A stretch of DNA of 40,009 bases, from positions 1 to 40,009 of the forward strand of contig CAIMDI010000006.1 of NCBI GenBank assembly GCA_903839695.1. Reading direction: 5' to 3'. The notes beneath the pieces were generated by a model. The model was not told where the DNA came from, searched no databases, and saw only the letters and a list, made by a program, of their open reading frames with translations. Positions 50 to 39,258 of the stretch are shown here, piece after piece. Within the stretch, counting starts at the first letter, position 1. The number at the start of each line of letters is the position of its first letter. Made by a program: the position numbers and the translations under genes. The stretch is from Candidatus Tayloriibacteriota bacterium (GTDB taxonomy: Bacteria > Patescibacteriota > Minisyncoccia > Phycocordibacterales > PALSA-1337).

Positions 50-1246
50 ATGAATGAATTAAATCAAAAACAAAGTTCAAATAAAAGGATTTTCGGACTA
101 AATCGTAATATTTTTTTTCTAGGAATAATTAGTTTTTTCAATGATTTTTCGAATGAAATGATTCTCTCTGCCTTTCCTGCTTTTTTTACATCAGTATTAA
201 AATCCGGTGCAGCTTCGCTTGGTTTGGTAGAAGGGCTTGCTGATGGTGCAGCCAATTTGATAAAAATCTATTCTGGTAATCTTTCAGACAAAATCCACAA
301 GCGCAGAATCTTTATTTTTATAGGCTACGGACTTTCTGTTGCTGTAAGACCTTTTTATATGTTTATGGGAAGCGTAGCGGGCGTATTGGGTCTTAGAGTT
401 GTAGATCGTATCGGTAAAGGGGTTAGAGAAGCTCCTCGAGACGTTATTATTTCTGTATCATCTAACAAATGGGAAACAGGTAGATCATTTGGCTATCATA
501 GAGCGATGGATACTGCTGGTGGTATATTGGGTCCTCTTGCTGCATTTCTAATATTAAAATATTGGCCAGGTCAATGGGGTCTGTTCTTCATGGTCACATT
601 TATGATTGGTCTTATTTCTTTTGCTACAATATTTTTTGTTAAGGAAGTTATAACATCAGTAAATTCAGAAGGTAGAAAAGTTTTTTCTTGGAAGACATTT
701 ACTTCATTTCCAAAATCATTTAGATATTATTTGTTGGCAATTTTTATTCTTTCAATGGGTAGTTTGCCAACTGCAATACTTCTATTAAAAACTATTAGTG
801 TTGGTTTACTTATTGCTTCTATTCCGTTGTTCTATATGGTGTATTCAATTTTCTATACAAGTTTTTCTTATACATTAGGAAAATTGTCTGACAGAATTGG
901 CACATCAAATGTTCTTATTTTCGGATATTTAGTTTTGATAATTTCATATTTAGGAATGATTTTTGCAAATAGCCCAATCCTATTAGGAATATTTTTTGCT
1001 ACTCTCGGACTTTTTTCTGCCTGTACAGACGCTACACAACGTTCACATGTTGCACATTCAGTTCCAGAATATGAGAGAGGAACAGCTTTTGGTTTATTAA
1101 ATGGTGCCATAGGTTTCGGTACTATGATTTCTGGAATAGTTGGTGGACTGATATGGCAAGATATTGGTGCAAATTACGCTTTACTATTATCAGCGTCGAT
1201 CGTTATCATTGGACTTATAATGTTTGGGATTAGTAAAAGAGTGTGA
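50..1246 (+). CDS. MFS transporter
   Basis: Major facilitator superfamily permease of 398 residues with about 12 hydrophobic segments spread along its whole length, so it sits in the cytoplasmic membrane. The loop after the second segment (about residues 74-86, SGNLSDKIHKRR) is an MFS motif A, and a conserved basic stretch RIGKGVREAPRDVII follows at about residues 120-134. That stretch is typical of a subgroup of bacterial MFS proteins annotated as drug or small-solute exporters. The substrate cannot be read from the sequence. The start at 50 is supported by an extended -10 box ending 7 nt upstream. The gene ends in TGA, which shows that UGA is a stop codon here. Confidence 0.88.
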   Translation: MNELNQKQSSNKRIFGLNRNIFFLGIISFFNDFSNEMILSAFPAFFTSVLKSGAASLGLVEGLADGAANLIKIYSGNLSDKIHKRRIFIFIGYGLSVAVRPFYMFMGSVAGVLGLRVVDRIGKGVREAPRDVIISVSSNKWETGRSFGYHRAMDTAGGILGPLAAFLILKYWPGQWGLFFMVTFMIGLISFATIFFVKEVITSVNSEGRKVFSWKTFTSFPKSFRYYLLAIFILSMGSLPTAILLLKTISVGLLIASIPLFYMVYSIFYTSFSYTLGKLSDRIGTSNVLIFGYLVLIISYLGMIFANSPILLGIFFATLGLFSACTDATQRSHVAHSVPEYERGTAFGLLNGAIGFGTMISGIVGGLIWQDIGANYALLLSASIVIIGLIMFGISKRV

Positions 1247-1259
1247 TAGCATAGAAAAC

Positions 1260-1781
1260 ATGAATAACTATAACAAAGGTGGTTTTCGTGGGGGTGGAGG
1301 CGGGGGCTATAAAGGGGGTTTTAAGGGTGGAAGTCGAGGTGGTGACAGAGGTAGCGATAGGGGTGAAAGAGGTCCTATAACAATGCATAGCGCCATTTGC
1401 AGTAGTTGTGGCAAGACATGTGAAGTTCCTTTTAGACCTTCTGGTGAGAAGCCTGTTTATTGCAGAGACTGTTTTGCTGGTAGAAGTGCAATGGGAGGCG
1501 ATCGTTCTCAAAGAAAGGATCCTAGAACATTCTCACAAAATACTTTTCAAAACAATCAATCAAGCCCTAGTTCTCAAAATGTCTCAGGGAATAGTGAAAT
1601 AAAAAAACAAATTGAAGCGATGAATGTAAAATTGGATAAAATCATTTCTCTTTTTCAAGAATCTGTTTTAAAAAGTGCATTAATTAAAGTTACAGATAAG
1701 CCAAAGGAAATTGCAACAGTAACAACTGCAGCGACGGTAGGAAAAGTAATGAAAGTAAAAAAAGCAAAGAAAAGTAAATAA
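1260..1781 (+). CDS. Gly-rich CxxC-x17-CxxC zinc-ribbon protein
   Basis: 173-residue protein with three parts. Residues 1-40 are rich in Gly, Arg and Lys (RGG/GYKGG repeats), as in RNA-binding tails. A C-x2-C-x17-C-x2-C zinc-ribbon-like unit follows (CSSC at about 46-49, CRDC at about 67-70). The C-terminal half is polar, with a short predicted coiled coil and a very basic Lys-rich end. The CxxC-x17-CxxC domain is a recognised small family common in Patescibacteria and Chloroflexi; its role is unknown, and nucleic-acid binding is an inference from composition. I chose ATG 1260 because the protein then begins at the Gly-rich tail and a TGA-TAGCAT box lies 7 nt upstream. An upstream in-frame start at 1224 would overlap the MFS gene. 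Confidence 0.8.
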   Translation: MNNYNKGGFRGGGGGGYKGGFKGGSRGGDRGSDRGERGPITMHSAICSSCGKTCEVPFRPSGEKPVYCRDCFAGRSAMGGDRSQRKDPRTFSQNTFQNNQSSPSSQNVSGNSEIKKQIEAMNVKLDKIISLFQESVLKSALIKVTDKPKEIATVTTAATVGKVMKVKKAKKSK

Positions 1782-1802
1782 GTTTAAATAAAATATATTT
1801 AC

Positions 1803-1841
1803 ACAAAATCATCCCGTTGCGTTGCCGCAACGGGATTTTGT
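1803..1841 (+). terminator. Rho-independent-like hairpin
   Basis: The 3' arm 1827-1841 (GCAACGGGATTTTGT) pairs with 1803-1820, which carries a 3-nt bulge, around the loop 1821-1826. A/T-rich flanks at the stem base make it usable in both directions. It lies between the convergent genes ending at 1781 (+) and 1863 (-). Confidence 0.75.
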
Positions 1842-1862
1842 GCCAAATTTTGGCTTTACTGT

Positions 1863-2093
1863 TTACTGTCGAAACAGTCTGAGGGCTACCAATTCCTCAA
1901 TAGATTCTCTTCTGTAGAGAATGTCACTCTCTTCTGTTGAACGCAATGATCTGCATTTCCACATTCTCGTTACCGGGTCCAAACCCACAACTTGGTAACG
2001 ATGCCCAGCGGGATACTTTCCATCATATAAGATGAAGTCTTGCCCGATTAAACTTCTTTTCCAGACTTTGTTTCCATGGTGTACTTTATTCAC
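1863..2093 (-). CDS. Small protein of unknown function (76 aa)
   Basis: 76-residue basic, largely beta-like protein with no family I recognise. It has several aromatic and charged residues (WKRSLIGQDFILYDGKYPAG near residues 11-30), no membrane segment and no cysteine pair. It starts with GTG at 2093, and a Shine-Dalgarno-like GAGGT lies about 6 nt upstream on the minus strand. This is unlike most genes in the window. Its GC content is visibly higher than that of the neighbouring helicase gene, and it is divergent from that gene. The ribosome-binding site and composition argue for a real, possibly acquired gene. Confidence 0.6.
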   Translation of the reverse strand: MNKVHHGNKVWKRSLIGQDFILYDGKYPAGHRYQVVGLDPVTRMWKCRSLRSTEESDILYRRESIEELVALRLFRQ

Positions 2094-2170
2094 TCTTTAC
2101 CTCATATTACAGTGTTTAACGATACCAACACGAATAATTTAGCATATGTAATTTTAAAAGTAAATTAAGA

Positions 2171-2179
2171 TGTTATAAT
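2171..2179 (+). promoter_or_regulatory. Extended -10 promoter of PIF1-WYL gene, leaderless
   Basis: TGTTATAAT with TATAAT at 2174-2179, 6 nt before the ATG at 2186. No ribosome-binding site is possible if transcription starts at the usual distance. Confidence 0.65.
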
Positions 2180-2185
2180 CACGCA

Positions 2186-3733
2186 ATGAAAAACTTATCC
2201 TGGAACTCACAAGCAAAAGAAGCATTAAGAATAATGAATGAAACTTCAGAAAATCTTTTTCTTACTGGTCGTGCTGGTACCGGTAAGTCTACTTTATTAA
2301 ATGAATTTAAAAGAAATACTAGAAAACGTATTGCTGTATTGGCGCCTACAGGTGTTGCCGCGGTAAATGTTTCTGGCCAGACTATTCATTCCTTTTGTGG
2401 ATTTAAACCAGACATTACTTTAAAGAAGGTAAAAAAATTACCTGATGGAAATAAAAAAGTAAAAGTACTTAGTAAACTCGATGCTATTGTTATTGATGAA
2501 ATATCTATGACTCGTGCTGATCTTTTGGATTGTTTTGATAGATTTTTAAGATTAAATAGAAAAGATTCTGCATTAAAACCTTTTGGTGGTTTACAAATTG
2601 TTTTTATTGGTGATCTTTATCAACTTCCTCCTGTAATTAATTCAGCAGAAAAAAATGCTTTTGAAAAAATCTATGAAAGTCCATATTTTTTTAGTGCAAA
2701 ATGTTTTGTTCCTGAATTATTTAATTTTATAGAATTAGAGCAAGTATATCGTCAGCTTGATAATAATTTTATAAGATTATTAAATACTATTAGAAATAAT
2801 AGTGTGACTTCTGTAGAATTTGATGAATTAAATAAAAGATATATAAAAGATTTTGTAAGATCGAATAATGATAAATTTGTTGTTTGTTTAACATCAACAA
2901 ATGCTAAAGCTAGTGAAATAAATTCATTAAATTTAAATGAATTGGAAGGGGAGGAATTTGCTCGCGTGGCTTCGATCACAGGAAGATTTGAAAGATCACA
3001 TATGCCAACTGATGATGTTTTGCGTTTAAAAATCGGCGCGCAAGTTATGTTACTAAATAATGATTCAGATGGACGATGGGTAAATGGAACCATGGCAATT
3101 GTTCATAAAATTGAAGAAGAAGGCATTTTAGTAAAATTGGAAAATGGTGATTATTATCCGATAAATAAAAATACATGGGATGTTTTTGAATACAATGTAG
3201 ACGGAAAAGGTGTACTTAAAACTAAAACTGTCGGATCATTTACACAATACCCTTTGAAACTCGCATGGGCAATAACAATTCACAAAAGTCAGGGTAAAAC
3301 TTTTGATGAAGTTATGATAGACCTCGGGCGTGGAACTTTTGCACATGGACAACTTTATGTTGCACTTTCACGTTGTCGAACACTTGAGGGTATTACACTT
3401 TGTCAGCCATTACAGAAAAGTCATGTGATTATGGATTGGAGAGTTGTAAAATTTGTAACATCATTGCATTATGCAAAATCAGAAGAAAAGTGTTCTATAG
3501 ATAATAGAATTAAAATAATAAAAAAAGCAATAAAAAATAAATCTGAACTTTCTATAACATATTTAAAAAATAATGATGAAAAATCACGACGGATTATTGA
3601 ACCAAAAAAAATAGGAGAAATGGAGTATAAGGGTATAAAGTATTTGGGCGTAGAAGCATATTGTCAAAACAGGAAATCAATTAGAACATTTCGCGTGGAT
3701 AGAATGGTGGAGATTGGGGAGGGGAAGAAATAG
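2186..3733 (+). CDS. PIF1-family DNA helicase with C-terminal WYL domain
   Basis: 515-residue ATP-dependent helicase of superfamily 1B. Walker A is GRAGTGKS at residues 28-35. The Walker B/PIF1 motif IDEISM is at about 103-108. The TGVAAVNVSGQT motif Ia region follows Walker A, and late helicase motifs are visible in the ITIHKSQGKTFDEV and YVALSRCR stretches. These match PIF1/RecD-like 5'-3' helicases, which act on G-quadruplexes, R-loops and recombination intermediates. From about residue 441 to 510 there is a WYL-type domain (SITYLKNNDE, RRIIEPKKIG, RTFRVDRM), with KYL where WYL is typical. WYL modules bind ligand or single-stranded DNA, and PIF1-WYL fusions are known in other bacteria. It is probably monocistronic. 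Confidence 0.92.
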   Translation: MKNLSWNSQAKEALRIMNETSENLFLTGRAGTGKSTLLNEFKRNTRKRIAVLAPTGVAAVNVSGQTIHSFCGFKPDITLKKVKKLPDGNKKVKVLSKLDAIVIDEISMTRADLLDCFDRFLRLNRKDSALKPFGGLQIVFIGDLYQLPPVINSAEKNAFEKIYESPYFFSAKCFVPELFNFIELEQVYRQLDNNFIRLLNTIRNNSVTSVEFDELNKRYIKDFVRSNNDKFVVCLTSTNAKASEINSLNLNELEGEEFARVASITGRFERSHMPTDDVLRLKIGAQVMLLNNDSDGRWVNGTMAIVHKIEEEGILVKLENGDYYPINKNTWDVFEYNVDGKGVLKTKTVGSFTQYPLKLAWAITIHKSQGKTFDEVMIDLGRGTFAHGQLYVALSRCRTLEGITLCQPLQKSHVIMDWRVVKFVTSLHYAKSEEKCSIDNRIKIIKKAIKNKSELSITYLKNNDEKSRRIIEPKKIGEMEYKGIKYLGVEAYCQNRKSIRTFRVDRMVEIGEGKK

Positions 3734-3754
3734 AATATAATTTATCTCTTTTTG

Positions 3755-3763
3755 TGCTACAAT
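3755..3763 (+). promoter_or_regulatory. Extended -10 promoter of tspO, leaderless
   Basis: TGCTACAAT with TACAAT at 3758-3763, 6 nt before the ATG at 3770. Confidence 0.6.
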
Positions 3764-3769
3764 TGACTT

Positions 3770-4168
3770 ATGAATCAATCTTATAACTGGTATTCTCAAC
3801 TTATTAGACCATCGTGGTCACCACCTTCATGGCTTTTTGGTCCTGTATGGACTTTTCTATATGTTTTGATTGCTGTATCCTTCGGAAAGGTTTTTATGAT
3901 GTTTTTGCAAAAACAAATTCCTTTTATCGTTGTTTTGCCTTTTATTTTAAATTTACTTTTTAATTTTATTTTTACACCTATTCAATTTGGCCTAAAAAAT
4001 AATTTACTTGCAGCTACAGATATTTTACTTGTACTTGGTACTTTGATATGGGCAATGATTGCTATTTATCCTCATATGAAATGGGTGACTTATATTCAAA
4101 TTCCATATTTACTTTGGGTTTGTTTTGCTACTGTATTGCAATTGACTATAACTTGGCTAAATAAATAA
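3770..4168 (+). CDS. tspO: TspO/MBR family membrane protein
   Basis: 132-residue integral membrane protein with five predicted hydrophobic segments, the usual size for the tryptophan-rich sensory protein / mitochondrial benzodiazepine receptor family. The N-terminal signature is visible: WYSQLIRPSWSPPSWLFGPV at residues 6-25, followed by WTFLY. A second conserved Trp-rich patch (LLWVCFATVLQLTITWLN) closes the protein. Family members bind tetrapyrroles and steroids and affect stress responses; the ligand here is unknown. It is preceded by a leaderless promoter. An inverted repeat covers its stop codon. Confidence 0.9.
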   Translation: MNQSYNWYSQLIRPSWSPPSWLFGPVWTFLYVLIAVSFGKVFMMFLQKQIPFIVVLPFILNLLFNFIFTPIQFGLKNNLLAATDILLVLGTLIWAMIAIYPHMKWVTYIQIPYLLWVCFATVLQLTITWLNK

Positions 4169-4189
4169 TTCTAATTTTCTTAGAATTAT
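4165..4189. repeat. Perfect 10-bp inverted repeat
   Basis: ATAATTCTAA at 4165-4174 and its exact reverse complement at 4180-4189, with a 5-nt loop. It overlaps the tspO stop codon and ends 6 nt before the TATAAA-like box of the next gene. No U-tract follows, so it could be an operator or RNA-stability hairpin rather than a terminator. Confidence 0.5.
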
Positions 4190-4227
4190 GATAGTATAAA
4201 AAAAGAGTTTTTAACAAAAGGACAAAT

Positions 4228-5004
4228 ATGAAATGGCCTAAATGGCTGATGTTAGTTCGTCATGATACGTCTATTTACAATCTTTTGAAAAAGGAGAAGG
4301 AAATAGATCCGAAATACGCTGAGTTTTTGAATGAATGGAAAGTCAACCCTCTTTCAAAAAAATCAGAAAATTTCGCAAGACAGATACAAGATATCTATAC
4401 TCCTAAAATAACAGGAGATGCAGACACACCTTTGGCTGATCCGCAGGGATTACAAGCACAAAGAACAGGTGCAGAACTACGTATTCGACATGTTGATTTG
4501 CCAGATGTAGTTTTTGTTTCGCCGTATAGACGCGCTAAACAGACTTTAGCCAGTATGGTCAAGGGATGGCCTGAACTTAGTAGTGTTCATGTTCACGAAG
4601 AAGAAAGAGTTCGGGAACAAGAATATGGCCTGTCTTTGATATACACAGATCGGCGTGTCTTTGAAACGCTGAATCCCGATCAACACAAACTTCGAAAAAT
4701 TGAAGGACCGTATTGGTATCGTTTTCCTCAAGGGGAAAATGTTCCAGACGTGAGAGAGAGAAATCGTTCCTGGATGAATATGGTAGTACAAAACTATTCG
4801 GGAAAAAAAGTCATGGTGATTACACATCACTTAAACATTTTGGCACAAAGGGCGAACTTCGAGGGTTTTGGTGCCGAAACATTTATTCGCCTCGACAGAT
4901 CCGAATGTCCTATCAATTGTGGTGTCACTCTATACAGAGCACAAGATGGTTCGGTTAATGACACACAAATGAACCTCGAGTATTACAATAAAAAGTTTTA
5001 CTAG
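4228..5004 (+). CDS. Histidine phosphatase superfamily protein
   Basis: 258-residue protein of the phosphoglycerate mutase-like branch. The phosphoacceptor motif is LVRHDTSIYN (residues 9-18), with Asp where the usual RHG has Gly. The conserved second-substrate region SPYRRAKQT is at about 93-101, and the distal catalytic His is in VMVITHHLNILAQR (about 194-207). Such enzymes remove phosphate from small metabolites or proteins; the substrate cannot be told here. Unlike its neighbours it has a clear Shine-Dalgarno (AAAGGA, about 6 nt before ATG), a TATAAA box at 4195-4200 and a GC content near 45% in sampled lines, which hints at transfer. Two hairpins follow the stop codon. Confidence 0.85.
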   Translation: MKWPKWLMLVRHDTSIYNLLKKEKEIDPKYAEFLNEWKVNPLSKKSENFARQIQDIYTPKITGDADTPLADPQGLQAQRTGAELRIRHVDLPDVVFVSPYRRAKQTLASMVKGWPELSSVHVHEEERVREQEYGLSLIYTDRRVFETLNPDQHKLRKIEGPYWYRFPQGENVPDVRERNRSWMNMVVQNYSGKKVMVITHHLNILAQRANFEGFGAETFIRLDRSECPINCGVTLYRAQDGSVNDTQMNLEYYNKKFY

Positions 5005-5028
5005 AACTTGTATATATGATTTTATTCA

Positions 5029-5064
5029 AAAAGCGCATTACTTCAAGTTTTGCGCTTTCTTTTT
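5029..5064 (+). terminator. Terminator after phosphatase gene
   Basis: AAAAGCGCA at 5029-5037 pairs with TGCGCTTTC at 5051-5059 (internal loop about 13 nt), followed by a T-rich tail to 5064. It is positioned 25 nt after the stop codon at 5004. Confidence 0.75.
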
Positions 5065-5069
5065 GCAAA

Positions 5070-5096
5070 AAAGCATCACTTTATAGGTGATGCTTT
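5070..5096. terminator. Second hairpin, bidirectional terminator
   Basis: AAAGCATCAC (5070-5079) and GTGATGCTTT (5087-5096) form a perfect 10-bp stem with a 7-nt loop. It sits just after the stop codon of the minus-strand permease gene, so it can serve the convergent pair in either direction. Confidence 0.75.
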
Positions 5097-5109
5097 GTGA
5101 GTATTTTTC

Positions 5110-5661
5110 TCAGCTCGATTGAATACGTTGAATGGCTGAGAGTAGTAATACCATAAAGAGAGAAATGACAAATCCAACAGCGAAAACTATTGATGTCAAT
5201 TTTCCTCCAAGAAATGGTAGACGAAACATGAGTGTGGTCCAATTGACCATGCTCATTGTTATAAGGAATGCGATAATGGAATATTTGTTTCCGTCGCTAT
5301 TCCACTTTGTCTGAAGTATAGGCCCCATCGTCGAACCCCCTGGCGTTAGACATCCGACGATACCTGCTTTGATAACAGACTTACCGGCGACTATTTCACC
5401 GATATGTTGTGGCTTCTTCACAAAGTGTGCATTGAGTTGTCCGCTAATCAACGCGAATACCACAATGATAGGCATAATGCCCAGAAAGAATTTCCAACCA
5501 AAGAAGAGACCGTTGTTTACAAGGCTGGTGCCTCCGATTTTGAAATTTTCATAACAAAACCAGATGAATGCGACGATCAATAGGGCTAAACTAATCATAG
5601 ATATGATTTTCCTTTTAAGTTTTAGGGTAGCTGGTGAAGGGACAATTTGAGTTGCTTTCAT
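5110..5661 (-). CDS. Integral membrane protein, possible half-size permease
   Basis: 183-residue protein with about five hydrophobic segments and a short basic N-terminus (residues 1-18). The central stretch KAGIVGCLTPGGSTMGPIL, a charged loop and then a hydrophobic SMVNWTTLMF segment resemble one repeat of the ArsP/DUF318-type permeases, where two such halves make a transporter. Only one half is present, so it would need to dimerise or pair with another half. The resemblance is from pattern only, and the substrate is unknown. On the minus strand a TGTTATAAA box lies 16 nt before the ATG, so it is not strictly leaderless. Its GC content is higher than that of most neighbours. Confidence 0.6.
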   Translation of the reverse strand: MKATQIVPSPATLKLKRKIISMISLALLIVAFIWFCYENFKIGGTSLVNNGLFFGWKFFLGIMPIIVVFALISGQLNAHFVKKPQHIGEIVAGKSVIKAGIVGCLTPGGSTMGPILQTKWNSDGNKYSIIAFLITMSMVNWTTLMFRLPFLGGKLTSIVFAVGFVISLFMVLLLSAIQRIQSS

Positions 5662-6058: not shown

Positions 6059-6107
6059 GATATGAAATACTGAAAAATATACATATTTAGCTACATAACC
6101 CCTTCAC

Positions 6108-6125
6108 AGTGAACGCTCGTTCACT
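6108..6125. promoter_or_regulatory. SOS box / LexA operator upstream of dinB
   Basis: AGTGAACGCTCGTTCACT, two perfect 8-nt arms around a 2-nt centre. The core GAAC-N4-GTTC at 6111-6122 matches the Gram-positive (Bacillus-type) LexA consensus. It abuts the -10 box at 6126, so bound repressor would block RNA polymerase. Confidence 0.75.
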
Positions 6126-6131
6126 TATAAT
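6126..6131 (+). promoter_or_regulatory. -10 box of dinB, leaderless
   Basis: Perfect TATAAT, 6 nt before the ATG at 6138 and directly downstream of the LexA-type palindrome. Confidence 0.65.
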
Positions 6132-8011: not shown

Positions 8012-8020
8012 TGTTATAAT
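8012..8020 (+). promoter_or_regulatory. Extended -10 promoter of DUF2585 gene, leaderless
   Basis: TGTTATAAT with TATAAT at 8015-8020, 6 nt before the ATG at 8027, overlapping the 3' end of the spacer after the metallopeptidase gene. Confidence 0.65.
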
Positions 8021-10947: not shown

Positions 10948-10956
10948 TGCTAATAT
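10948..10956 (+). promoter_or_regulatory. Extended -10 promoter of serS, leaderless
   Basis: TGCTAATAT with TAATAT at 10951-10956, 7 nt before the ATG at 10964. This supports MLDIKFIRENKEVV as the true N-terminus over an upstream in-frame ATG. Confidence 0.55.
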
Positions 10957-10963: not shown

Positions 10964-12235
10964 ATGTTAGATATAAAATTTATAAGGGAGAATAAGGAAG
11001 TGGTTCAAGCAGGTGCAAAGAAGAAACATGTCAATATAAACATTGACGAGCTTATTGACTTGGATGATAAAAGAAAAGAGAAATTATCGTCTATAGAAAA
11101 GAAACGTGCTGAACAAAATCTCATTAGTGAAAAAATTCCTTCAGCTACACCAGAAGATCGTCAGAGAATGATTGATGATATGAAAATTGTCAAAGATGCA
11201 CTTCAAAAAGAAGAAGAATTACTTAAGGAAATAATGAAAAATTGGCATGAGGCTATGCTTCGTGTTCCAAATATTCCCGATATTTCAGTTCCTGAAGGTG
11301 ATACAGATAAAGACAATAAAGAAATTAAAGTTTGGGGCGATAAACCAAAATTCGATTTTGAACCCAAAGATCATGTGGAGCTCATGACAAAGCTGGATAT
11401 GGTAGATTTTGAAAGAGGTTCAAAAGTCCACGGATTCAGAGGGTACTTTTTAACTGGAGATGGAGCTAGACTTTCATTTGCCATTTGGCAATATGCAATG
11501 GAGTTTTTTACAAATGCAAAAGTTGAAAGAAATTTCATTCCTATTATTTCTCCAGCAATTGTTAGAAAAATAAATTTGTATGGAACTGGTCACTTACCCG
11601 GAGATGTAGAAGATTTTTACATGACACAAGATGGGGACGCTTTAGCTGGTACCGCCGAAGTTCCGCTTATGGCTATGCATAGTGATGAAGTTCTTGATTT
11701 AAAATCTTTACCCAAAAAATATTTAGGTTTTTCTCCATGTTATCGTCGTGAGGCAGGTGCTCATAGTAAAGACGTAAAGGGTCTTATTAGAGTGCATGAG
11801 TTTTATAAGTTTGAACAACTTATACTTTGTGAAGCTAGTCACGAAGCAACTGTTGCTTTCCATGATCAAATAAACAGAAATACCGAAGAATTTATCGAGT
11901 CATTGGGAATTCCGTATCATACTGTATTAAATTGTGGTGGAGATTTGGGCTTAGGACAAGTTAAAAAATACGATATTGAATTATGGGTGCCTAAAGAAAA
12001 TACTTATAGAGAAATATCATCAGCATCATATTTTCATGATTTCCAAACTCGTCGTCTAAACATTCGCTACAAAGACTCAGAAGGTAAGCTTCGTTATGCA
12101 CATTCCCTAAACTGTACTGCTATTCCTACTCCTAGAATACTGGTTTCCTTGATTGAAAATTATCAGCAAGCAGATGGATCAATCAAACTTCCTGAGGTTT
12201 TGCAGAAGTATATGGGAAAGGACAGTATAAAATAG
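10964..12235 (+). CDS. serS: Seryl-tRNA synthetase
   Basis: 423-residue class II synthetase charging tRNA-Ser, the normal bacterial length. The N-terminal coiled-coil arm that grips the long variable arm of tRNA-Ser covers about residues 25-100. Motif 2 is seen in LGFSPCYRREAGAHSKDVKG and the following RVHEFYKFEQ. Motif 3 lies near the C-terminus (LNCTAIPTPRILVSLIENYQ). The chosen start matches family N-termini. It is directly followed with no gap by the FtsQ-like gene, so translation and division genes are probably co-transcribed. Confidence 0.95.
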   Translation: MLDIKFIRENKEVVQAGAKKKHVNINIDELIDLDDKRKEKLSSIEKKRAEQNLISEKIPSATPEDRQRMIDDMKIVKDALQKEEELLKEIMKNWHEAMLRVPNIPDISVPEGDTDKDNKEIKVWGDKPKFDFEPKDHVELMTKLDMVDFERGSKVHGFRGYFLTGDGARLSFAIWQYAMEFFTNAKVERNFIPIISPAIVRKINLYGTGHLPGDVEDFYMTQDGDALAGTAEVPLMAMHSDEVLDLKSLPKKYLGFSPCYRREAGAHSKDVKGLIRVHEFYKFEQLILCEASHEATVAFHDQINRNTEEFIESLGIPYHTVLNCGGDLGLGQVKKYDIELWVPKENTYREISSASYFHDFQTRRLNIRYKDSEGKLRYAHSLNCTAIPTPRILVSLIENYQQADGSIKLPEVLQKYMGKDSIK

Positions 12236-14084: not shown

Positions 14085-15101
14085 ATGATTAAGAAAAGTG
14101 CAAGTAAAGCCAAACAAAATTTCTGGCAAAAGCTCAAAAAACCTATATTCGTTATAGCTCCAATGGCAAATGTCACTGATGTGGCTTTTCGCGCTATGTT
14201 TGCAAAATATGGTAAACCAGATGTAATGTGGACGGAATTTGTTTCAGCAGATGGATTATGTTCTGCAGGGCGCAAAATGCTTTTACATGATTTAAAGTTT
14301 TCTAAAAAAGAAAAACCAATTGTTGCTCAACTTTTTTCAGCTAATCCTATAAAAATGCGTGAAGCATGTTCTATCGTTTCCAAACTTGGATTTGATGGTA
14401 TTGATATAAATATGGGATGCCCTGATAGATCTGTGGAAAAACAAGGAGCTGGAGCAAGTATGATGAAGAATCCTGCGCTTGCGAAAGAAGTATTAGAAGC
14501 TGCACGAATAGGCGCGCCGTCTTTGCCTATAAGTATAAAAACAAGAATTGGTTATAATAAAGTTGATTTAGAATGGATAGAATTTTTACTTGAACAAAAA
14601 CTACCAGCGCTAACAGTACACTTGCGAACTAGAAAGGAAATGTCAGATGTACCGGCGCATTGGGATTTGATGAAAAAAATTGTAGAAATTAGAGATCGCA
14701 TTTCACCCGATACTATTTTGATTGGAAATGGCGATGTGATGAGTTTAATGGATGCAAAAATAAAGGTAAAAGAAAGTGGTTGTGATGGTGCAATGATCGG
14801 AAGAGGAATATTTGGTAATCCTTGGTTTTTTAAAGGTAAAATGCCAATGGATTTTACTCCAGCACAACGTTTAAAAGTTATGCTCGAACATGCTAAAGCT
14901 TTTGAAAAATATTTAGGAAGTGTAAAGAATTTTGCAAATATGAAAAAGCATTTTAAAGCATATGTATCAGGTTGGGACGGTGCAAAGGAATTACGTGTAA
15001 AATTAATGGAAAGCGATGAATTGAAGGAAGTGGAGGGGATTATAAAAGATTCGTCAAAAATGTTACAATACCCTCATGTCAAAAAAATCAACGGAAAATA
15101 A
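14085..15101 (+). CDS. dus: tRNA-dihydrouridine synthase
   Basis: 338-residue FMN-dependent enzyme that reduces uridines in the tRNA D-loop. The TIM-barrel start is VIAPMANVTDVAFRAMF (about 24-40). The catalytic Cys lies in DGIDINMGCPDRSVEKQGAG (about 104-123). FMN-phosphate-binding loops are visible as NGDVMS and GAMIGRGIFGNPW (about 231-252). The length is normal. The 3' end overlaps dnaX by 26 nt and also contains the dnaX promoter. The subgroup (DusB-like or other) cannot be told safely. Confidence 0.93.
   Translation: MIKKSASKAKQNFWQKLKKPIFVIAPMANVTDVAFRAMFAKYGKPDVMWTEFVSADGLCSAGRKMLLHDLKFSKKEKPIVAQLFSANPIKMREACSIVSKLGFDGIDINMGCPDRSVEKQGAGASMMKNPALAKEVLEAARIGAPSLPISIKTRIGYNKVDLEWIEFLLEQKLPALTVHLRTRKEMSDVPAHWDLMKKIVEIRDRISPDTILIGNGDVMSLMDAKIKVKESGCDGAMIGRGIFGNPWFFKGKMPMDFTPAQRLKVMLEHAKAFEKYLGSVKNFANMKKHFKAYVSGWDGAKELRVKLMESDELKEVEGIIKDSSKMLQYPHVKKINGK
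15061..15069 (+). promoter_or_regulatory. Extended -10 promoter of dnaX inside dus, leaderless
   Basis: TGTTACAAT with TACAAT at 15064-15069, 6 nt before the ATG at 15076. It lies inside the last codons of dus. Confidence 0.55.
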
Positions 15102-17071: not shown

Positions 17072-17077
17072 TATAAT
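17072..17077 (+). promoter_or_regulatory. -10 box of DUF5672 gene, leaderless
   Basis: Perfect TATAAT, 6 nt before the ATG at 17084. Confidence 0.6.
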
Positions 17078-17844: not shown

Positions 17845-17853
17845 TGCTATAAT
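17845..17853 (+). promoter_or_regulatory. Extended -10 promoter, leaderless
   Basis: TGCTATAAT with TATAAT at 17848-17853, 6 nt before the ATG at 17860. It decides that start over the in-frame TTG at 17857. Confidence 0.6.
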
Positions 17854-18784: not shown

Positions 18785-18793
18785 TGGTATAAT
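18785..18793 (+). promoter_or_regulatory. Extended -10 promoter of sensor kinase, leaderless
   Basis: TGGTATAAT with TATAAT at 18788-18793, 7 nt before the ATG at 18801. Confidence 0.6.
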
Positions 18794-33602: not shown

Positions 33603-33654
33603 TTTTTGTTTTATTGTATTAAGGAAGTTACGAATGGTTAACTTCAATATACAC

Positions 33655-33726
33655 GGCCCTATCGTCTAATGGTTAGGACATCGCCTTCTCAAGGCGGTAA
33701 TCCGGGTTCGACTCCCGGTAGGGTCA
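33655..33726 (+). tRNA. tRNA-Glu (CUC)
   Basis: Acceptor GGCCCTA (33655-33661) with TAGGGTC, including one G-U pair; D-arm GTC...GAC; anticodon stem TCGCC/GGCGG with loop TTCTCAA giving anticodon CUC; T-arm CCGGG-TTCGACT-CCCGG. Discriminator A at 33726. CCA is not encoded, unlike the tRNA-Gln in this window. Confidence 0.94.
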
Positions 33727-33899: not shown

Positions 33900-33950
33900 T
33901 AAGAACAACTACCCACACACCCCAGCACAAATACCATTATTGTATTGTTA

Positions 33951-33959
33951 TGTTATAAT
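33951..33959 (+). promoter_or_regulatory. Extended -10 promoter of DHFR-like gene, leaderless
   Basis: TGTTATAAT with TATAAT at 33954-33959, 6 nt before the ATG at 33966. It rules out an upstream in-frame start at 33945. Confidence 0.65.
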
Positions 33960-33965
33960 TTTAAT

Positions 33966-34466
33966 ATGGTAACTTTATACAATGTTATTTCTTCTGATGG
34001 ATTTATCGCTAGACTTGATGGAAGTGAAGATTTTATTCCTGATGAAGTCTGGAATGATTTATTGGATATTTGTAAAAATTACGATACTGTTGTTGTAGGT
34101 AGAAAGACTTATGAGACTATATTGGCGTATCCGCAAGCCATGATTAAAAAATTTGAAGATTTGAAAATTCAAAAAATTGTAGTTACTAATGATAATAATT
34201 TCACAGCAAAACCAGGGTATATTATTACTCATTCTCCTAAGGAAGCTTTTTCAATAGGTCAAAATATTTTGCTTACAAGTGGCCCAACATTAAATAGTTC
34301 AGCATTAAGTGAGGGATTAATAGATAAAGTTATTTTAAATACTCTTCCTGATAAAATAAATGTTGGTATAAAAGTATTTAATAATGATCCAAAGCTTATA
34401 CCATTATCTAGTATAGACAAGCCAAATAATCGTAAATTATGTTTTTATAGTATTTCAAAAATATAA
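33966..34466 (+). CDS. Dihydrofolate reductase / RibD C-terminal family protein
   Basis: 166-residue NADPH-dependent reductase fold. The start TLYNVISSDGFIARLDGSED (about 3-22), the cofactor-binding VVVGRKTYE (about 45-53) and the C-terminal LTSGPTLNSSALSEGLIDKV (about 101-120) match the broad RibD_C/DHFR-like family rather than classical FolA. The substrate is uncertain; it may replace FolA in a reduced folate pathway. Monocistronic. Confidence 0.85.
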   Translation: MVTLYNVISSDGFIARLDGSEDFIPDEVWNDLLDICKNYDTVVVGRKTYETILAYPQAMIKKFEDLKIQKIVVTNDNNFTAKPGYIITHSPKEAFSIGQNILLTSGPTLNSSALSEGLIDKVILNTLPDKINVGIKVFNNDPKLIPLSSIDKPNNRKLCFYSISKI

Positions 34467-34539
34467 ATACAAATATGGGTTTTATGGGTGTTATTATTAT
34501 TTTATATATGCTTGCTAATTGATTACGATACCCCACCCA

Positions 34540-34568
34540 TTGCTATTTTTGTCTATATGTACTAGTAT
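34540..34568 (+). promoter_or_regulatory. -35/-10 promoter of cold-shock gene
   Basis: TTGCTA at 34540-34545, a 17-nt spacer and TAGTAT at 34563-34568. Start of transcription near 34575 predicts a leader of about 40 nt before the ATG at 34616. This gene is therefore not leaderless, as expected for RNA-level control of cold-shock genes. Confidence 0.4.
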
Positions 34569-34615
34569 TTACATACGAGAAAATCGTCGAATTTCTTTAA
34601 AAAAATTATATAAAA

Positions 34616-34813
34616 ATGACAGGAACAATCAAAACTCTTACAGAGAAAGGATTTGGATTCATTGCTCGCGAAGGTGAGACAAAGGATCTATTCTTTCACT
34701 CTAATGACCTTTCTGGCGTCACATTTGCTGAGCTTAAAGTTGGCGATTCAGTCAACTTCGAGATCGTAGATGGACAGAAGGGACCAAGTGCAAAAAATGT
34801 TACACGTGCATAA
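34616..34813 (+). CDS. csp: Cold-shock domain protein (CspA family)
   Basis: 65-residue single-stranded nucleic-acid chaperone, usual family length. RNP1 is KGFGFIAR (about 11-18) and RNP2 is DLFFHS (about 24-29). GC and codon choice are higher than in most neighbours, consistent with strong expression. It has a leader and its own strong terminator. Confidence 0.96.
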   Translation: MTGTIKTLTEKGFGFIAREGETKDLFFHSNDLSGVTFAELKVGDSVNFEIVDGQKGPSAKNVTRA

Positions 34814-34834
34814 TCGCATCTGAAATATTTTAAG

Positions 34835-34862
34835 AAAAGACTCCACTTTTGTGGGGTCTTTT
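34835..34862 (+). terminator. Strong terminator after csp
   Basis: AAAAGACTCCAC (34835-34846) pairs with GTGGGGTCTTTT (34851-34862) through a TTTT loop, with one T-G pair. Confidence 0.9.
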
Positions 34863-34871
34863 CGATTAGTG

Positions 34872-34877
34872 TATAAT
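34872..34877 (+). promoter_or_regulatory. -10 box of gene 34885, leaderless
   Basis: Perfect TATAAT, 7 nt before the ATG at 34885 and just 9 nt after the csp terminator stem. Confidence 0.6.
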
Positions 34878-34884
34878 ATAGTAT

Positions 34885-35484
34885 ATGAAAAAGTCGTTAA
34901 TAATAATTTTCGTTACATTTTTGGCATTAGGATTAGTATCGTATTTGAGATACGAAGTAAAGACTAAATTACTCCATAACACCAATTCAAATTCTTCAAA
35001 AAAAATAAATCAGCCTATTGCTATCAATCAAGACACTTTAGCTGATTATAAAAATATTACTTATACACTAGACGGCCAATCCGTAACTTTTGTAAATGGT
35101 TTGGCTGAAACTGAATTGGTCAAAGATTCAGGAATAAAAAATATATTCAAATATTACGGAAATGAAGTTAAACATGATTTCAATGGAGATGGACTTGAGG
35201 ATATTGCTTTCATTATATCAAATGAAACCGGAGGAACCGGAACATTCTTTTTTCTGGTTGTCGCATTAAATACTCCAAATGGTTATTTTGGTTCAAATGG
35301 ATATTTTATCGGAGATCGTATTATTCCACTTTATACAGAATTGGGTGAGGGGTATTCAATAATCGTAAATTATTTGGATAGAGGAGCTGATGAGCCTTTT
35401 TCTGCTGAACCTGCAATTAAAAAAAGCATAAAATTATTATTAAATACAAATTCAATGGAATTAAATGAAGTAATAAAAAATTAG
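34885..35484 (+). CDS. Exported or membrane-anchored protein of unknown function
   Basis: 199 residues. An N-terminal anchor or signal (about 4-24) is followed by a Ser/Asn-rich spacer and an extracytoplasmic domain. The core holds DFNGDGLEDIAFII (about 98-111), a calcium-loop-like DxNxDG motif, and GGTGTFFFLVVAL, GYFIGDRIIP (about 115-152). These blocks recur in a widespread uncharacterised family of exported proteins in Patescibacteria and other phyla. No catalytic residues are obvious. Confidence 0.75.
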   Translation: MKKSLIIIFVTFLALGLVSYLRYEVKTKLLHNTNSNSSKKINQPIAINQDTLADYKNITYTLDGQSVTFVNGLAETELVKDSGIKNIFKYYGNEVKHDFNGDGLEDIAFIISNETGGTGTFFFLVVALNTPNGYFGSNGYFIGDRIIPLYTELGEGYSIIVNYLDRGADEPFSAEPAIKKSIKLLLNTNSMELNEVIKN

Positions 35485-35502
35485 CCAATATATCCATATT
35501 TC

Positions 35503-35511
35503 TGCTATATT
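35503..35511 (+). promoter_or_regulatory. Extended -10 promoter of valS, leaderless
   Basis: TGCTATATT with TATATT at 35506-35511, 6 nt before the ATG at 35518. Confidence 0.55.
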
Positions 35512-35517
35512 ATACTT

Positions 35518-37686
35518 ATGAATGAAAAATTTTTAAAACCATATAATCCCACTGAAACAGAGGACAATATTTACAAAGAGTGGATTGATAGTGGCTATTT
35601 TAACCCAGATAATTTACCTGAGAGACATAAAACTCCATATTCTATAGTATTACCTCCACCAAATGTAACAGGAACACTTCACATGGGACATGCAGCAATG
35701 TTAGCCATTGAAGATATTTTAATAAGATATAAAAGACTTAGAGGCTACAAAACATTGTGGATACCTGGAACAGATCATGCGGCCATAGCTACACAGTCAA
35801 AAGTTGAAAAAGAAATAGAAAAAAAGGAAGGAAAAAGAAGACATGATATTGGTAGGGAAGAATTATTAAATCGTATAAATATTTTTGCACAACAAAGCCA
35901 CGACACTATTGTAGGACAGGTCAAAAAAATGGGTGCATCTATTGATTGGTCTAGAGAAGCTTTTACATTAGACGAAAAAAGAACAAAAGCTGTTAGAACA
36001 GCATTCAAGATGATGTATGATCTTGGACTTATTTATCGTGGAAATAGAATTATTAATTGGGACCCTAAAGGCCAGACTACTATTTCAGATGATGAAATTG
36101 TATATACAGAAAGACCAACAAAAATTTATACTTTCAAATATTCTAAGGATTTTCCTATTTCAATAGCTACTACACGCCCTGAGACAAAAGTTGGTGATAC
36201 CGCAGTTGCTGTACATCCAGAAGATGCTCGTTATATGGCATATATAGGTAAGACTTTTGAAGTAGATTTTGCAGGTGTGATATTAAAAATAAAAGTTGTT
36301 GGGGATATTGCTGTTGATCCTGCTTATGGTACTGGTGCTGTTGGCGTTACACCAGCACATAGTTCTATAGATGCTGATATAGCTTCCAGACATGGTTTAC
36401 AAAGTATTCAGGTTATAAATGAATTTGCTAAAATGATGCCAAATACCGGCATTGTTAAGGATTTAAAAGTTCTCGAAGCTAGAGAAAAAATAGTTGAATG
36501 GCTTAAGGAAAACAATTTATTAGAAAAAGAAGAGGAAAGTTTACAAAATATTTCCACAGCTGAAAGAACAGGTGCAGTTATAGAACCATTACCAAAATTA
36601 CAATGGTTCATCGCTGTAAATAAAAAGTTTAAAAAAGGCGATAGGGAAGTTACTTTAAAAGAATTAATGATATCTGCCGTAAAGGATGAAAAAATAAAAA
36701 TTGTTCCAGAAAGATTTGATAAAACATATTTTAATTGGATTGATAATCTTCGTGATTGGTGTATTTCAAGACAAATATGGTATGGACACAGAATACCTGT
36801 TTGGTATAAAAATAATGGAAAGACAGACGAAATATTTGTAGGTACAGATGCACCGGAAGGTTTGGAATGGAAACAAGATGAAGATACACTAGATACTTGG
36901 TTTTCTTCTGGCTTATGGACATTTTCTACACTAGGATGGCCAGAAAAGACAAAAGATTTAGAGGAATATCATCCAAATGCTGTTCTTGAAACTGGATATG
37001 ATATTTTGTTTTTTTGGGTGGCAAGAATGATTCTTATGACTGAGTGTTTATTGGATACTATTCCTTTCAAAACTATTTATCTACATGGTTTAGTTAGAAC
37101 TGCGAAAGGTGAGAAAATGTCAAAATCAAAACCTGAAACAAATATAGATCCATTGGATATGATTAAAAAGTACGGAGCTGATGCCACGAGACTATCTTTG
37201 ATTATAGGTAATGGACCGGGAAATGATCTTAAAATTTCTGAGGACAAAGTAAAAGGTTATAAACATTTTGCAAATAAAATATGGAATATTACACGTTTTG
37301 TTTTAACTTCAGTAGAAAATGAAAAAATTGAGAAAGACTTTTCAAAATATTCTATAAAGGATATTGAATTAATCAAAGAAATAGATGGTATAATTTCAGA
37401 AATTACCAATGACATAGAAAATTTCCGCTTATATCTAGCTGCTGAAAAGCTTTATCATTATACATGGCATAGATTTGCAGATATTATTCTTGAAGAAAGC
37501 AAAGAAATACTTAAGTCCGGATCAGATGAAGAAAAAAAGTCTCGCAAACAATTTTTGCTACACACCCTATCAACATTACTCATAACTCTTCATCCATTTA
37601 TACCTTATGTTACAGAAGAAATATGGAAGGATATGCCGATTGAAAATAGGGGAATGTTAATCATAGCTCAATGGCCAATAAAATAA
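35518..37686 (+). CDS. valS: Valyl-tRNA synthetase, short form
   Basis: 722-residue class I synthetase charging tRNA-Val. HIGH-type motif HMGH in TGTLHMGHAAM (about 56-66). The editing domain (CP1) carries IATTRPETKVGDTAVAVHPE (about 217-236). KMSKS lies in GEKMSKSKPETN (about 530-541). Anticodon-binding helices follow, but the C-terminal coiled-coil tRNA-binding tail of full-length ValRS (about 850-950 residues) is missing. It is followed without a gap by a small membrane-protein gene. Confidence 0.96.
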   Translation: MNEKFLKPYNPTETEDNIYKEWIDSGYFNPDNLPERHKTPYSIVLPPPNVTGTLHMGHAAMLAIEDILIRYKRLRGYKTLWIPGTDHAAIATQSKVEKEIEKKEGKRRHDIGREELLNRINIFAQQSHDTIVGQVKKMGASIDWSREAFTLDEKRTKAVRTAFKMMYDLGLIYRGNRIINWDPKGQTTISDDEIVYTERPTKIYTFKYSKDFPISIATTRPETKVGDTAVAVHPEDARYMAYIGKTFEVDFAGVILKIKVVGDIAVDPAYGTGAVGVTPAHSSIDADIASRHGLQSIQVINEFAKMMPNTGIVKDLKVLEAREKIVEWLKENNLLEKEEESLQNISTAERTGAVIEPLPKLQWFIAVNKKFKKGDREVTLKELMISAVKDEKIKIVPERFDKTYFNWIDNLRDWCISRQIWYGHRIPVWYKNNGKTDEIFVGTDAPEGLEWKQDEDTLDTWFSSGLWTFSTLGWPEKTKDLEEYHPNAVLETGYDILFFWVARMILMTECLLDTIPFKTIYLHGLVRTAKGEKMSKSKPETNIDPLDMIKKYGADATRLSLIIGNGPGNDLKISEDKVKGYKHFANKIWNITRFVLTSVENEKIEKDFSKYSIKDIELIKEIDGIISEITNDIENFRLYLAAEKLYHYTWHRFADIILEESKEILKSGSDEEKKSRKQFLLHTLSTLLITLHPFIPYVTEEIWKDMPIENRGMLIIAQWPIK

Positions 37687-38115
37687 ATGTTTAATAAAAA
37701 ACTATCATTTTTTTCAGAAAAAACAGGAACATTCAATGTTTGGAGACAATTAACAAACTTTTGGACATTTGTATTTTTTACTGCAATAGTCTATGACTTT
37801 TTTCATGAAAATATTTTAGTGGAAGCAGACATAATGATAGCAATAGCAGCGATATATGCAGCTTCACTCGCTATCTATAGTGCAGAAAAAGAGTTTAGAC
37901 GATGGCATAACATGCATGACTCTATTCATCCAGGAGAGTTATATGCGATTGTTTGGACAATATTGGTAATACTTATAGTTATTGGAGATATATTTTATGG
38001 TTCAAAGTATCATATACCAGCAGAAATAAGTGCATCATATATAGCTGTAATAAGTATATTGGCCATAACTAGAGAGTCAAAGAACTTCTATAAAAAGAAA
38101 GTAAAAAAGGAGTAG
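37687..38115 (+). CDS. Small membrane protein of unknown function (142 aa)
   Basis: Three predicted membrane spans at about 24-38, 48-64 and 88-106, plus a possible fourth near 115-130. A charged, His-containing loop (EKEFRRWHNMHDSIHPGELY, about 67-86) sits between spans 2 and 3. It holds three His that could bind a metal. The gene starts on the base after the valS stop codon, so translation is coupled to valS. No family recognised. Confidence 0.6.
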   Translation: MFNKKLSFFSEKTGTFNVWRQLTNFWTFVFFTAIVYDFFHENILVEADIMIAIAAIYAASLAIYSAEKEFRRWHNMHDSIHPGELYAIVWTILVILIVIGDIFYGSKYHIPAEISASYIAVISILAITRESKNFYKKKVKKE

Positions 38116-38174
38116 GGAGTTTATAGAATGGCGGGGATATTTACCACCATTGCTTTATTTCAATAAGTGTTATA

Positions 38175-38180
38175 TAATAT
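38175..38180 (+). promoter_or_regulatory. -10 box of plsC-like gene, leaderless
   Basis: TAATAT, 7 nt before the ATG at 38188. A TATAAT overlapping at 38173-38178 would leave 9 nt. Confidence 0.5.
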
Positions 38181-38187
38181 TACCACA

Positions 38188-38886
38188 ATGAATGTACAAG
38201 CCATAAAAAAAATAGCTGTTAGTGCTGAAAAAACAAAGCCCGAAATATACTATACTTTAATGAAATATTTCGCTGGAATTACTCAATTTTTAGCATGGCC
38301 TATTGCTTTTACTTATTTTCATCTATTTTTTAAATTAAAAATTACCGGAAAAGAAAATTTAAATAGCGTTTCTTCACCTTTTATTATAATTTCAAATCAC
38401 GTTGCTTTTTATGATAGTTTCGTTTTTAGAATTGTATTTGGAGCATGCACAAAAAAATTACCATTAAGATTTATGGCTGTGAATCAGTTTAGAACTTTGT
38501 ATTTAAATTTAGCTTCTAAATTATTTATTACAAATATTGTTTATGCTATTTTTGGAGTATTCGTTGTTGTGAGAGGAAGAGGAATAGATAAAAATTTAGA
38601 GGAAGCTGTAAGAATAATGAAAAATGGAGGTAATGTTGTTGTGTATCCTGAAGGAAGTATTATACATGGTGATGAAATAGGTCCATTTAAACTTGGCGCA
38701 GCAGCTTTGGCAATAAAAACTTCCGCATCTGTAATCCCAATCTCTATGAGAGTAGGTACAAAGGGTATTAGAAAAGAATACACTATTAATATCGGTGAAC
38801 ATATTAATGTCGATACTTCATTATCTAGAAAACAAGTTTCTGATATATTTTATAATAAAATAAAAAGTTTACACGACTATAAATAG
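38188..38886 (+). CDS. plsC: 1-acyl-glycerol-3-phosphate acyltransferase-like protein
   Basis: 232-residue acyltransferase that would form phosphatidic acid. HxxxxD is in ISNHVAFYDS (about 69-78), and the second site VVYPEGSIIHGDE is at about 150-162. Hydrophobic stretches near 32-47 and 112-130 place it at the membrane. CPR bacteria often lack full lipid synthesis, so it may remodel host or scavenged lipids (inference). It overlaps the convergent gene at its 3' end by 18 nt. Confidence 0.88.
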   Translation: MNVQAIKKIAVSAEKTKPEIYYTLMKYFAGITQFLAWPIAFTYFHLFFKLKITGKENLNSVSSPFIIISNHVAFYDSFVFRIVFGACTKKLPLRFMAVNQFRTLYLNLASKLFITNIVYAIFGVFVVVRGRGIDKNLEEAVRIMKNGGNVVVYPEGSIIHGDEIGPFKLGAAALAIKTSASVIPISMRVGTKGIRKEYTINIGEHINVDTSLSRKQVSDIFYNKIKSLHDYK

Positions 38887-39258
38887 AATTATAAATATTA
38901 AAACTGTAAATAATATTAAAAAGAAGGTAGGTTTTTTTGCCTCAGAATATACTTTTAGCTCAAGCTCTCTATCAATAGTGGGCATTTTTAATGAAGGAAT
39001 TATTTCATCAATAAGCAAACCCCAACCATAAGCAAAAGCAAGAATTGTGTATAAATTGTTTTCTACAAAAACAGTATAAATAGTAGATATAAAAATAATA
39101 AGTATTCCCCAATGACCATGATGAATTTGTAAACCACTTTTTTCTCTTGATGCAGATAGTTTTTCAAAGCTATGCCTATTTAACATAAATTTACTCCTTT
39201 GATACACAGAAGGGGCTATAAAAACTATTAAAAATGCAATAAATTCAGTAATTTTCAT
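38869..39258 (-). CDS. Membrane protein with HHGH and DE motifs (129 aa)
   Basis: 129 residues with about three or four membrane spans (about 4-18, 46-62, 68-85 and 110-128). A conserved-looking LQIHHGHWGILI (about 43-54) faces a GLLIDEI (about 79-85) on the next span. His and acidic residues set in the membrane recall metal-dependent membrane hydrolases, but I recognise no named family. It lies 12 nt after the histidine kinase on the same strand. Its leaderless promoter overlaps the kinase stop codon. Confidence 0.65.
   Translation of the reverse strand: MKITEFIAFLIVFIAPSVYQRSKFMLNRHSFEKLSASREKSGLQIHHGHWGILIIFISTIYTVFVENNLYTILAFAYGWGLLIDEIIPSLKMPTIDRELELKVYSEAKKPTFFLILFTVLIFIILFIVV

Follow-up and report, generated by a model that had tools for sequence, protein, structure and literature searches.

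The DNA considered here (the 'window') is a stretch of 40,009 nucleotides (nt) from a Candidatus Tayloriibacteriota bacterium, and forms part of an AT-rich genome (33% GC) of 732 kb in 36 contigs. The feature under study is a hexamer resembling TATAAT that ends a few nucleotides before the start codon at many genes and that, acting as a -10 promoter element, would give messenger RNAs lacking a 5' leader ('leaderless' mRNAs). The leucyl-tRNA synthetase of the window (gene leuS) is nearest to those of Taylor-, Nomura- and Zambryskibacteria and of other metagenome-assembled genomes (top identity 69%), and the host was placed in the Patescibacteria because of these relatives, within the class that we take to be Paceibacteria. 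Comparison of 30 window proteins with Pfam returned chiefly ordinary housekeeping, membrane and signalling genes.

The original prediction, made from the letters of the window, had listed 15 gene starts at which a TATAAT-like box ends 6 or 7 nt upstream, and had taken leaderless mRNA to be the main mode of expression in this genome. The 50 bases upstream of each start were re-read base by base, with the 'gap' defined as the number of nucleotides separating the end of the box from the start codon, and with a box called TATAAT-like when it carried at most one mismatch, unless stated otherwise. The boxes, together with a palindrome that adjoins one of them, are as follows:

37..42, + strand: TATAAT with TGn extension, 7 nt before ATG 50 of an MFS transporter (Pfam)
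2174..2179, + strand: TGTTATAAT, 6 nt before ATG 2186 of a PIF1-like helicase with a WYL domain (Pfam)
3758..3763, + strand: TGCTACAAT, 6 nt before ATG 3770 of TspO (Pfam)
6109..6124, no strand: palindrome GTGAACGCTCGTTCAC, separated by a single base from the -10 box that follows it (Y-family polymerase gene)
6126..6131, + strand: TATAAT, 6 nt before ATG 6138 of a Y-family DNA polymerase (Pfam)
8015..8020, + strand: TGTTATAAT, 6 nt before ATG 8027 of a DUF2585 protein (Pfam)
10951..10956, + strand: TGCTAATAT, differing from TATAAT at two bases, 7 nt before ATG 10964 of seryl-tRNA synthetase
15064..15069, + strand: TGTTACAAT, 6 nt before ATG 15076 of a DNA polymerase III delta-prime/AAA protein
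17072..17077, + strand: TATAAT, 6 nt before ATG 17084 of a DUF5672 protein
17848..17853, + strand: TGCTATAAT, 6 nt before ATG 17860 of MliC
18788..18793, + strand: TGGTATAAT, 7 nt before ATG 18801 of a PAS histidine kinase
33954..33959, + strand: TGTTATAAT, 6 nt before ATG 33966 of a RibD_C protein
34872..34877, + strand: TATAAT, 7 nt before ATG 34885 of a protein with no Pfam family
35506..35511, + strand: TGCTATATT, 6 nt before ATG 35518 of leucyl-tRNA synthetase
38173..38178, + strand: TATAAT, 9 nt before ATG 38188 of an acyltransferase, with an overlapping TAATAT at gap 7
39265..39270, - strand: TGATATAAT, 6 nt before ATG 39258 of a protein with no Pfam family

Fourteen of the 15 listed starts stood up to this reading, the exception being 38188; at 10964 the spacing is as claimed, but the hexamer (TAATAT) falls outside the one-mismatch definition. 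The counts of ten perfect TATAAT boxes at gap 6-7 and of 11 TGn extensions were correct, as was the spacing claimed for three weaker cases (at 1260, 7425 and 14085).

A genome-wide peak at a gap of 6-7 had been set beforehand as a test of the pattern, and it was sought among 259 genes in 339 kb of sequence (the window and 16 further stretches, L006-L021, or 46% of the genome). Genes were called by a codon-position Markov score, and each start was picked on coding score alone, blind to the sequence upstream. With starts chosen in this manner the peak is present and lies above shuffled sequence. Perfect TATAAT boxes number 14 at gap 6 and 11 at gap 7, with 0-4 at every other gap, so that 25 of the 259 genes carry one at gap 6-7 versus 1.3 per other gap pair. 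Boxes with at most one mismatch occupy gap 6-7 at 74 of the 259 genes, where the mean of the other gap pairs is 13.8, and their number falls sharply from 47 at gap 6 to 6 at gap 5. The window by itself has 12 of 36 genes boxed (vs 1.4) and the remainder of the sample 62 of 223 (vs 12.4), and across the whole genome the strict pattern TATAAT-N6-ATG occurs 61 times and the reversed pattern 22 times.

It might be supposed that such a pattern follows from base composition, since at 33% GC TATAAT-like words are expected near an ATG and starts could have been picked to fit; one-mismatch boxes are indeed present at a low rate at most gaps. However, starts based only on coding score yield an equally sharp peak, dinucleotide shuffles give 20.3 +/- 4.3 boxes at gap 6-7 with a maximum of 33 in 300 shuffles (against the 74 found), and five Clostridium loci of similar composition (GC 0.31; five of the seven Firmicutes loci in the leuS set described below) have such boxes at 0 of 54 genes (vs 3.8), while showing Shine-Dalgarno (SD) motifs at 25 of 54 (vs 7). 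Chance and AT-richness were rejected on the strength of the upstream-blind peak, the shuffles and the Clostridium control, and are left with next to no probability.

Several features that played no part in selecting the boxes suggest that they act as promoter elements. A TG occupies the extended -10 position of 34 of the 74 boxes, compared with a background of 5.6%, and T-rich positions appear at the place of a -35 element, about 17 bp upstream. Matches of at least four bases to TTGACA at 16-18 bp accompany 24 of the 74 boxes, versus 7-16 at eight control offsets, a modest -35 signal. The starts themselves are ATG in 72 of the 74 boxed genes and in 146 of the remaining 185; leaderless genes strongly prefer ATG as their 5'-terminal codon.

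A related clue comes from the palindrome at 6109-6124. Only two perfect palindromes of the form GTGAAC-N4-GTTCAC occur in the genome, this one and another at G000:C30:17459-17474, and chance predicts 0.29 copies of GAAC-N4-GTTC alone in the window. The second copy lies 261 bp before the only Peptidase_S24/LexA-like gene of the genome, with a 69-codon open frame between. Both sites read GTTCACTTATAAT and share an identical GTTCAC-T-TATAAT junction, yet the distance from the box to the first ATG is 6 nt at the polymerase gene and 34 nt at the second site, and the same palindrome/-10 module therefore seems to be leaderless once and leadered once. The form of the palindrome is presumably that of a LexA-type operator, and from this form and its place we infer a putative LexA site. 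When two mismatches were allowed, a search of the genome gave 7 matches where the reversed control gave 13, so that the pattern is no commoner than its control, and for this reason only the two perfect copies carry weight. As a side observation, the pair (one at a polymerase promoter, one upstream of a LexA-like gene) raises the possibility of an SOS regulon in a genome-reduced Patescibacterium.

These features bear directly on a second alternative, in which the box is a signal for translation (an AU-rich contact for the ribosome or for protein S1) on mRNAs that have ordinary leaders. A-rich 5' untranslated regions have been reported in SD-poor Flavobacteria (PMC3522020), and in the present genome the motif AATTAA/TAATTA is enriched before starts that have no box. 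Such a signal would not, however, be expected to bring with it a TG extension and a -35 element at promoter spacing, to recur at a palindrome/-10 junction where the first ATG comes 34 nt beyond the box, or to precede genes that are never translated: extended -10 elements were found before 5 of 12 tRNA genes, at gaps of 10-27 and not 6-7 (none was seen at the other seven). This alternative was accordingly judged very improbable, and leaderless transcription of the boxed genes, as originally proposed, is well supported at the level of sequence.

The arrangement before leuS recurs at many loci of the Patescibacteria. A set of 80 leuS loci was assembled, 73 of them from Patescibacteria, of which 64 were used in the main count. 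An extended -10 (TGNTANNNT) stands at gap 6 in 16 loci, at gap 7 in 12, at gap 8 in five and at gap 9 in six, for 39 of the 64, with none below gap 6 and 14 at all remaining gaps up to 51. This floor at gap 6 fits the leaderless prediction, because a closer box would start transcription inside the gene. Of the nine loci left out, three lack a usable start; among the other six, two carry an extended -10 (gap 6 or 7) and four do not, which brings the figure to 41 of 70. Scoring instead for a TATAAT-like box at gap 6-7 gives a lower value, 21 of 70, a count that includes six Firmicutes, none of them boxed. A four-base SD motif precedes leuS at one of the 64 Patescibacteria loci, while the five Clostridium leuS genes listed have clear SD sequences.

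The claim that the genome's genes lack SD sequences was borne out on the larger sample. Any of AGGA, GGAG or GAGG was counted at positions -18..-4 and, for comparison, at -48..-34: in the genome under study 9 of 259 genes have such a motif in the first interval and 21 of 259 in the second. Relatives and outgroups were treated in the same way, with 33-80 kb sampled per comparison genome. Seven other genomes of the same order have 20 vs 21 among 321 genes, whereas seven genomes outside the class that keep the anti-SD (ASD) have 98 vs 35 among 357, with AGGAG and AAGGAG among their top words. Genomes G184 and G179 were excluded from this pooled ASD-keeping set; two of the four stretches of G184 read N, and its SD motifs stand at 6% vs 22% (32 genes).

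Inspection of the 16S rRNA, which the original prediction had proposed as a check, revealed no ASD in the host's own genome. The usual 3' tail of a bacterial 16S rRNA is CACCUCCUUA; here the one 3' end found (GGATTATTTCAAAT) reads GGAAGCTGCTCGTGGATTATTTCAAATTG, in which helix 45 and the GGA are intact and CCUCC is gone. Neither CCTCC nor CTCC occurs in the 300 nt past this end, and the sequence downstream is predicted to form a leader/trailer processing stem. The gene is divided between two contig ends (G000:C20:14670-15755 and C23:1-938) whose overlap is mismatched at several bases, likely an assembly edge, and the 3' end was taken from contig C23 only. Elsewhere in the assembly, three identical TATAATATACCCATG sites (G000:C24:2741, C24:4225 and C36:101) suggest a repeated gene or element.

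Loss of the motif runs through the order. Of 33 genomes examined, seven have no readable 16S end (G005, G006, G007, G009, G010, G011 and G176), and CCUCC is absent at the aligned position in all 26 that do. Among the other orders of the class, where 8 of 11 genomes were readable, CCUCC is kept in two tails and lost in six; outside the class, where tails were read in 139 of at least 207 genomes with a 16S match, it is kept in 121, the other 18 having one or two changes in the core. Two genomes contain a second, foreign-type 16S 3' end (G197:C6:263, with CCTCC, and G172:C1:5403), probably through contamination. In 11 of 12 aligned tails the sequence UUCAA is shared, and conservation ends after it, which suggests a mature 3' end nearby, predicted to lie near GGAUUAUUUCAA(A).

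A conserved tail, often UUC(A/C)A, invites the thought that it serves as a new ASD pairing with a new motif, so that initiation still proceeds via the rRNA; the AATTAA/TAATTA enrichment before non-boxed genes might then be its counterpart. That enrichment is clear enough: among 167 non-boxed genes of this genome the motif occurs 20 times at -18..-4, against 3 at -48..-34 and 12 at -33..-19, and among 253 non-boxed genes of seven relatives 13 times, against 2 and 5, while in 311 non-boxed genes of ASD-keepers outside the class the figures are 5, 2 and 10. By eye, however, AATTAA could form only about four base pairs with the tail, and words complementary to the tail are barely enriched in the same 167 genes (5-mers 67 vs 55 and 49; 6-mers 14 vs 21 and 14). 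A tail-complementary ASD was rejected for lack of a clear enrichment of such words, and the idea of continued rRNA pairing is given only a slim chance. The AATTAA/TAATTA element may be a candidate AU-rich contact for the ribosome or S1.

Parts of the initiation apparatus differ as well in the order genomes examined for them. All 20 genomes searched contain IF3, but its C-domain is diverged in the order, with IF3_C scores of 39-50 bits in all eight order genomes, 53-74 bits in four other class members and 54-116 bits in eight genomes outside the class; the order's eight proteins share a motif GRxK(Y/F)(M/L) that occurs in none of the ten others aligned, which have GRE or GRQ and other residues there (the host's own C-domain is at G000:C9:25428-25643, listed as L210, with relatives as L211-L217). 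Ribosomal protein bS21 exceeds the cut-off in none of the eight order genomes, in one of four other class members and in five of eight outside the class. An S1-domain protein is kept, with four domains in a 400-residue frame. The IF3 and bS21 changes would be in keeping with a ribosome that has ceased to accommodate an SD duplex.

How common the leaderless arrangement is was estimated with a position weight matrix trained on the boxed genes and corrected for background. At the loosest threshold the corrected share of all genes is 25% (coding-score start) to 29% (any start within 60 nt), with 30-34% for genes at the head of an operon and 21-25% for closely spaced genes on the same strand; at the strictest threshold the corresponding values are 13-14%, 16-17% and 9-11%. 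A strong -10 within 60 bp was found for 43 of 112 head genes, in 24 of which it lies at gap 6-7, making this the most frequent position of a strong nearby promoter. Those 24 of 43, together with weaker boxes left uncounted, speak for leaderless mRNA as the dominant mode genome-wide. Against it stand the corrected shares, which even at the loosest threshold reach only 25-29% of genes and 30-34% of heads, and the 69 of 112 heads that show no strong -10 within 60 bp. Dominance is therefore unlikely, and the wording 'main mode' in the original prediction was too strong for a pattern that the corrected estimates put at about one gene in four and at 30-34% of operon heads; leaderless mRNA is a major mode but probably serves a minority of genes.

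The explanation that best accommodates these results, and in which we place considerable confidence, is that sigma-70-type extended -10 elements are set for leaderless mRNA in an order whose ribosomes have no ASD and initiate independently of SD sequences. What the sequences show directly is where the boxes lie and their promoter traits, the missing CCUCC, the lack of SD enrichment, an IF3 C-domain that has diverged and no bS21 above its cut-off. The extended -10 boxes would place the start of transcription on the start codon or no more than one or two bases away from it, so that the AUG forms the 5' end; around one gene in four, and about one operon-head gene in three, would then yield leaderless mRNA. 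Such mRNAs would start on 70S ribosomes, or on ribosomes loaded with IF2 and fMet-tRNA, that choose a 5'-terminal AUG, while operon-internal and leadered genes may start by AU-rich, S1-dependent or re-initiation routes. Because the readable 16S genes have no ASD and the sampled genes no SD signal, initiation in the order should not depend on SD pairing.

A number of observations pull the other way. Some 70% of genes have no such box, and the share among closely spaced genes on the same strand (21-25%) comes close to that among heads (30-34%). The mature 16S 3' end is placed by the limit of conservation, and in one member of the order, G012, the spacer contains a CCTCC roughly 27 nt beyond the aligned position; sub-threshold bS21 matches exist in four order genomes. 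Other genomes of the order show the box signature less strongly (an excess of 6-20%, in small samples and dependent on GC). Three ASD-keepers (G139, G184 and G193) show little or no SD use, and two ASD-keeping members of the class (G093 and G291) have SD motifs at 6 vs 7 of 64 genes. Finally, family f38 (G125, G170, G262 and G296) keeps CCTCC in 10 of 10 read tails and is strongly boxed (G262, 12 of 51 genes vs 1.3); leaderless genes and ASD loss are thus not tied one to one. A strict link between the two was ruled out by this family and by many genomes outside the class in which TATAAT-N6-7-ATG outnumbers its reversed pattern, although such counts vary with GC and genome size and are not the basis of any main claim. 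Within the class, two ASD-keepers have boxes at 0 of 64 genes (vs 1.8) and two ASD-losers at 6 of 63 (vs 1.6), both small samples. Across the phylum draw, counts of TATAAT-N6-7-ATG are highest in three f38 genomes, G125 (175 vs 15), G170 and G296, and SD motifs occur as well in G125 and G262.

A more ambitious version holds that SD initiation has been abandoned throughout the order, the ASD having been lost at or before its base, with operon heads largely leaderless, a UUAAUUAA-like AU-rich element serving operon-internal and leadered genes, and IF3 and bS21 remodelled accordingly. We regard this version as tentative, with a little less than an even chance of being right.

Parts of this picture have precedents. 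Deinococcus-Thermus and Actinobacteria, in which leaderless-type starts are familiar, retain SD-led genes and the ASD. The extracts of Zheng et al. (2011; PMC3160421) describe 'TA-led' genes in these two groups, with a Pribnow-like box about 10 bp before the start codon, a TG peak in some low-GC genomes and a frequency of about 20-40% of genes in both; the geometry is the same as that of the Tayloriibacteriota boxes, and Patescibacteria are not among the groups those extracts name. Loss of CCUCC goes with loss of SD-like motifs in the non-ASD genomes of Lim et al. (PMC3522020), and extracts of PMC10783764 list Campbellbacteria, Wolfebacteria and Absconditabacteria as SD-scarce and without CCUCC, with one or two genomes for each entry from the candidate phyla radiation (CPR), and tie leaderlessness only to Nanoarchaeia. 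As far as those extracts go, the shared traits are the losses of CCUCC and SD, which here extend across an order (26 of 26 readable genomes) and are accompanied by a leaderless promoter signature. Genes of Bacteroidota/Flavobacteria also naturally lack SD sequences, but according to extracts of PMC6847099 their ribosomes keep the ASD, whereas in the present case the ASD has been lost and many genes have leaderless promoters. Mollicutes resemble the present case in their reduced genomes and leaderless mRNAs, but extracts of PMC4014445 put the latter at about 18% on average with about 80% of mRNAs SD-bearing, while the present order has no SD signal. In the available portions of two further papers, leaderless mRNA is mentioned only for YchF (PMC12641178, on CPR ribosome biogenesis) or only within reference titles (PMC6851277).

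Among the matches listed in a search of open-licence papers, no report was found of leaderless transcription in Patescibacteria, none joining a leaderless signature with ASD loss in CPR/Patescibacteria, and none of order-wide ASD loss. Thus the leaderless geometry, the joint loss of CCUCC and SD motifs, and ASD loss in single CPR species are already known, while the order-wide extent of that loss and the leaderless signature beside it appear, within that search, to be new.

For the biology of these organisms, the readable members of the order offer a natural case in which ribosomes apparently cannot use SD pairing, alongside related genomes whose ribosomes can. Selection of a start codon without SD pairing becomes testable in this order, and so does the question of whether leaderless use came before or after the loss of the ASD, given that leaderless-type starts already abound in an ASD-keeping family of this phylum. 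At a practical level, gene finders that rely on SD sequences may misplace the starts of genes in such genomes.

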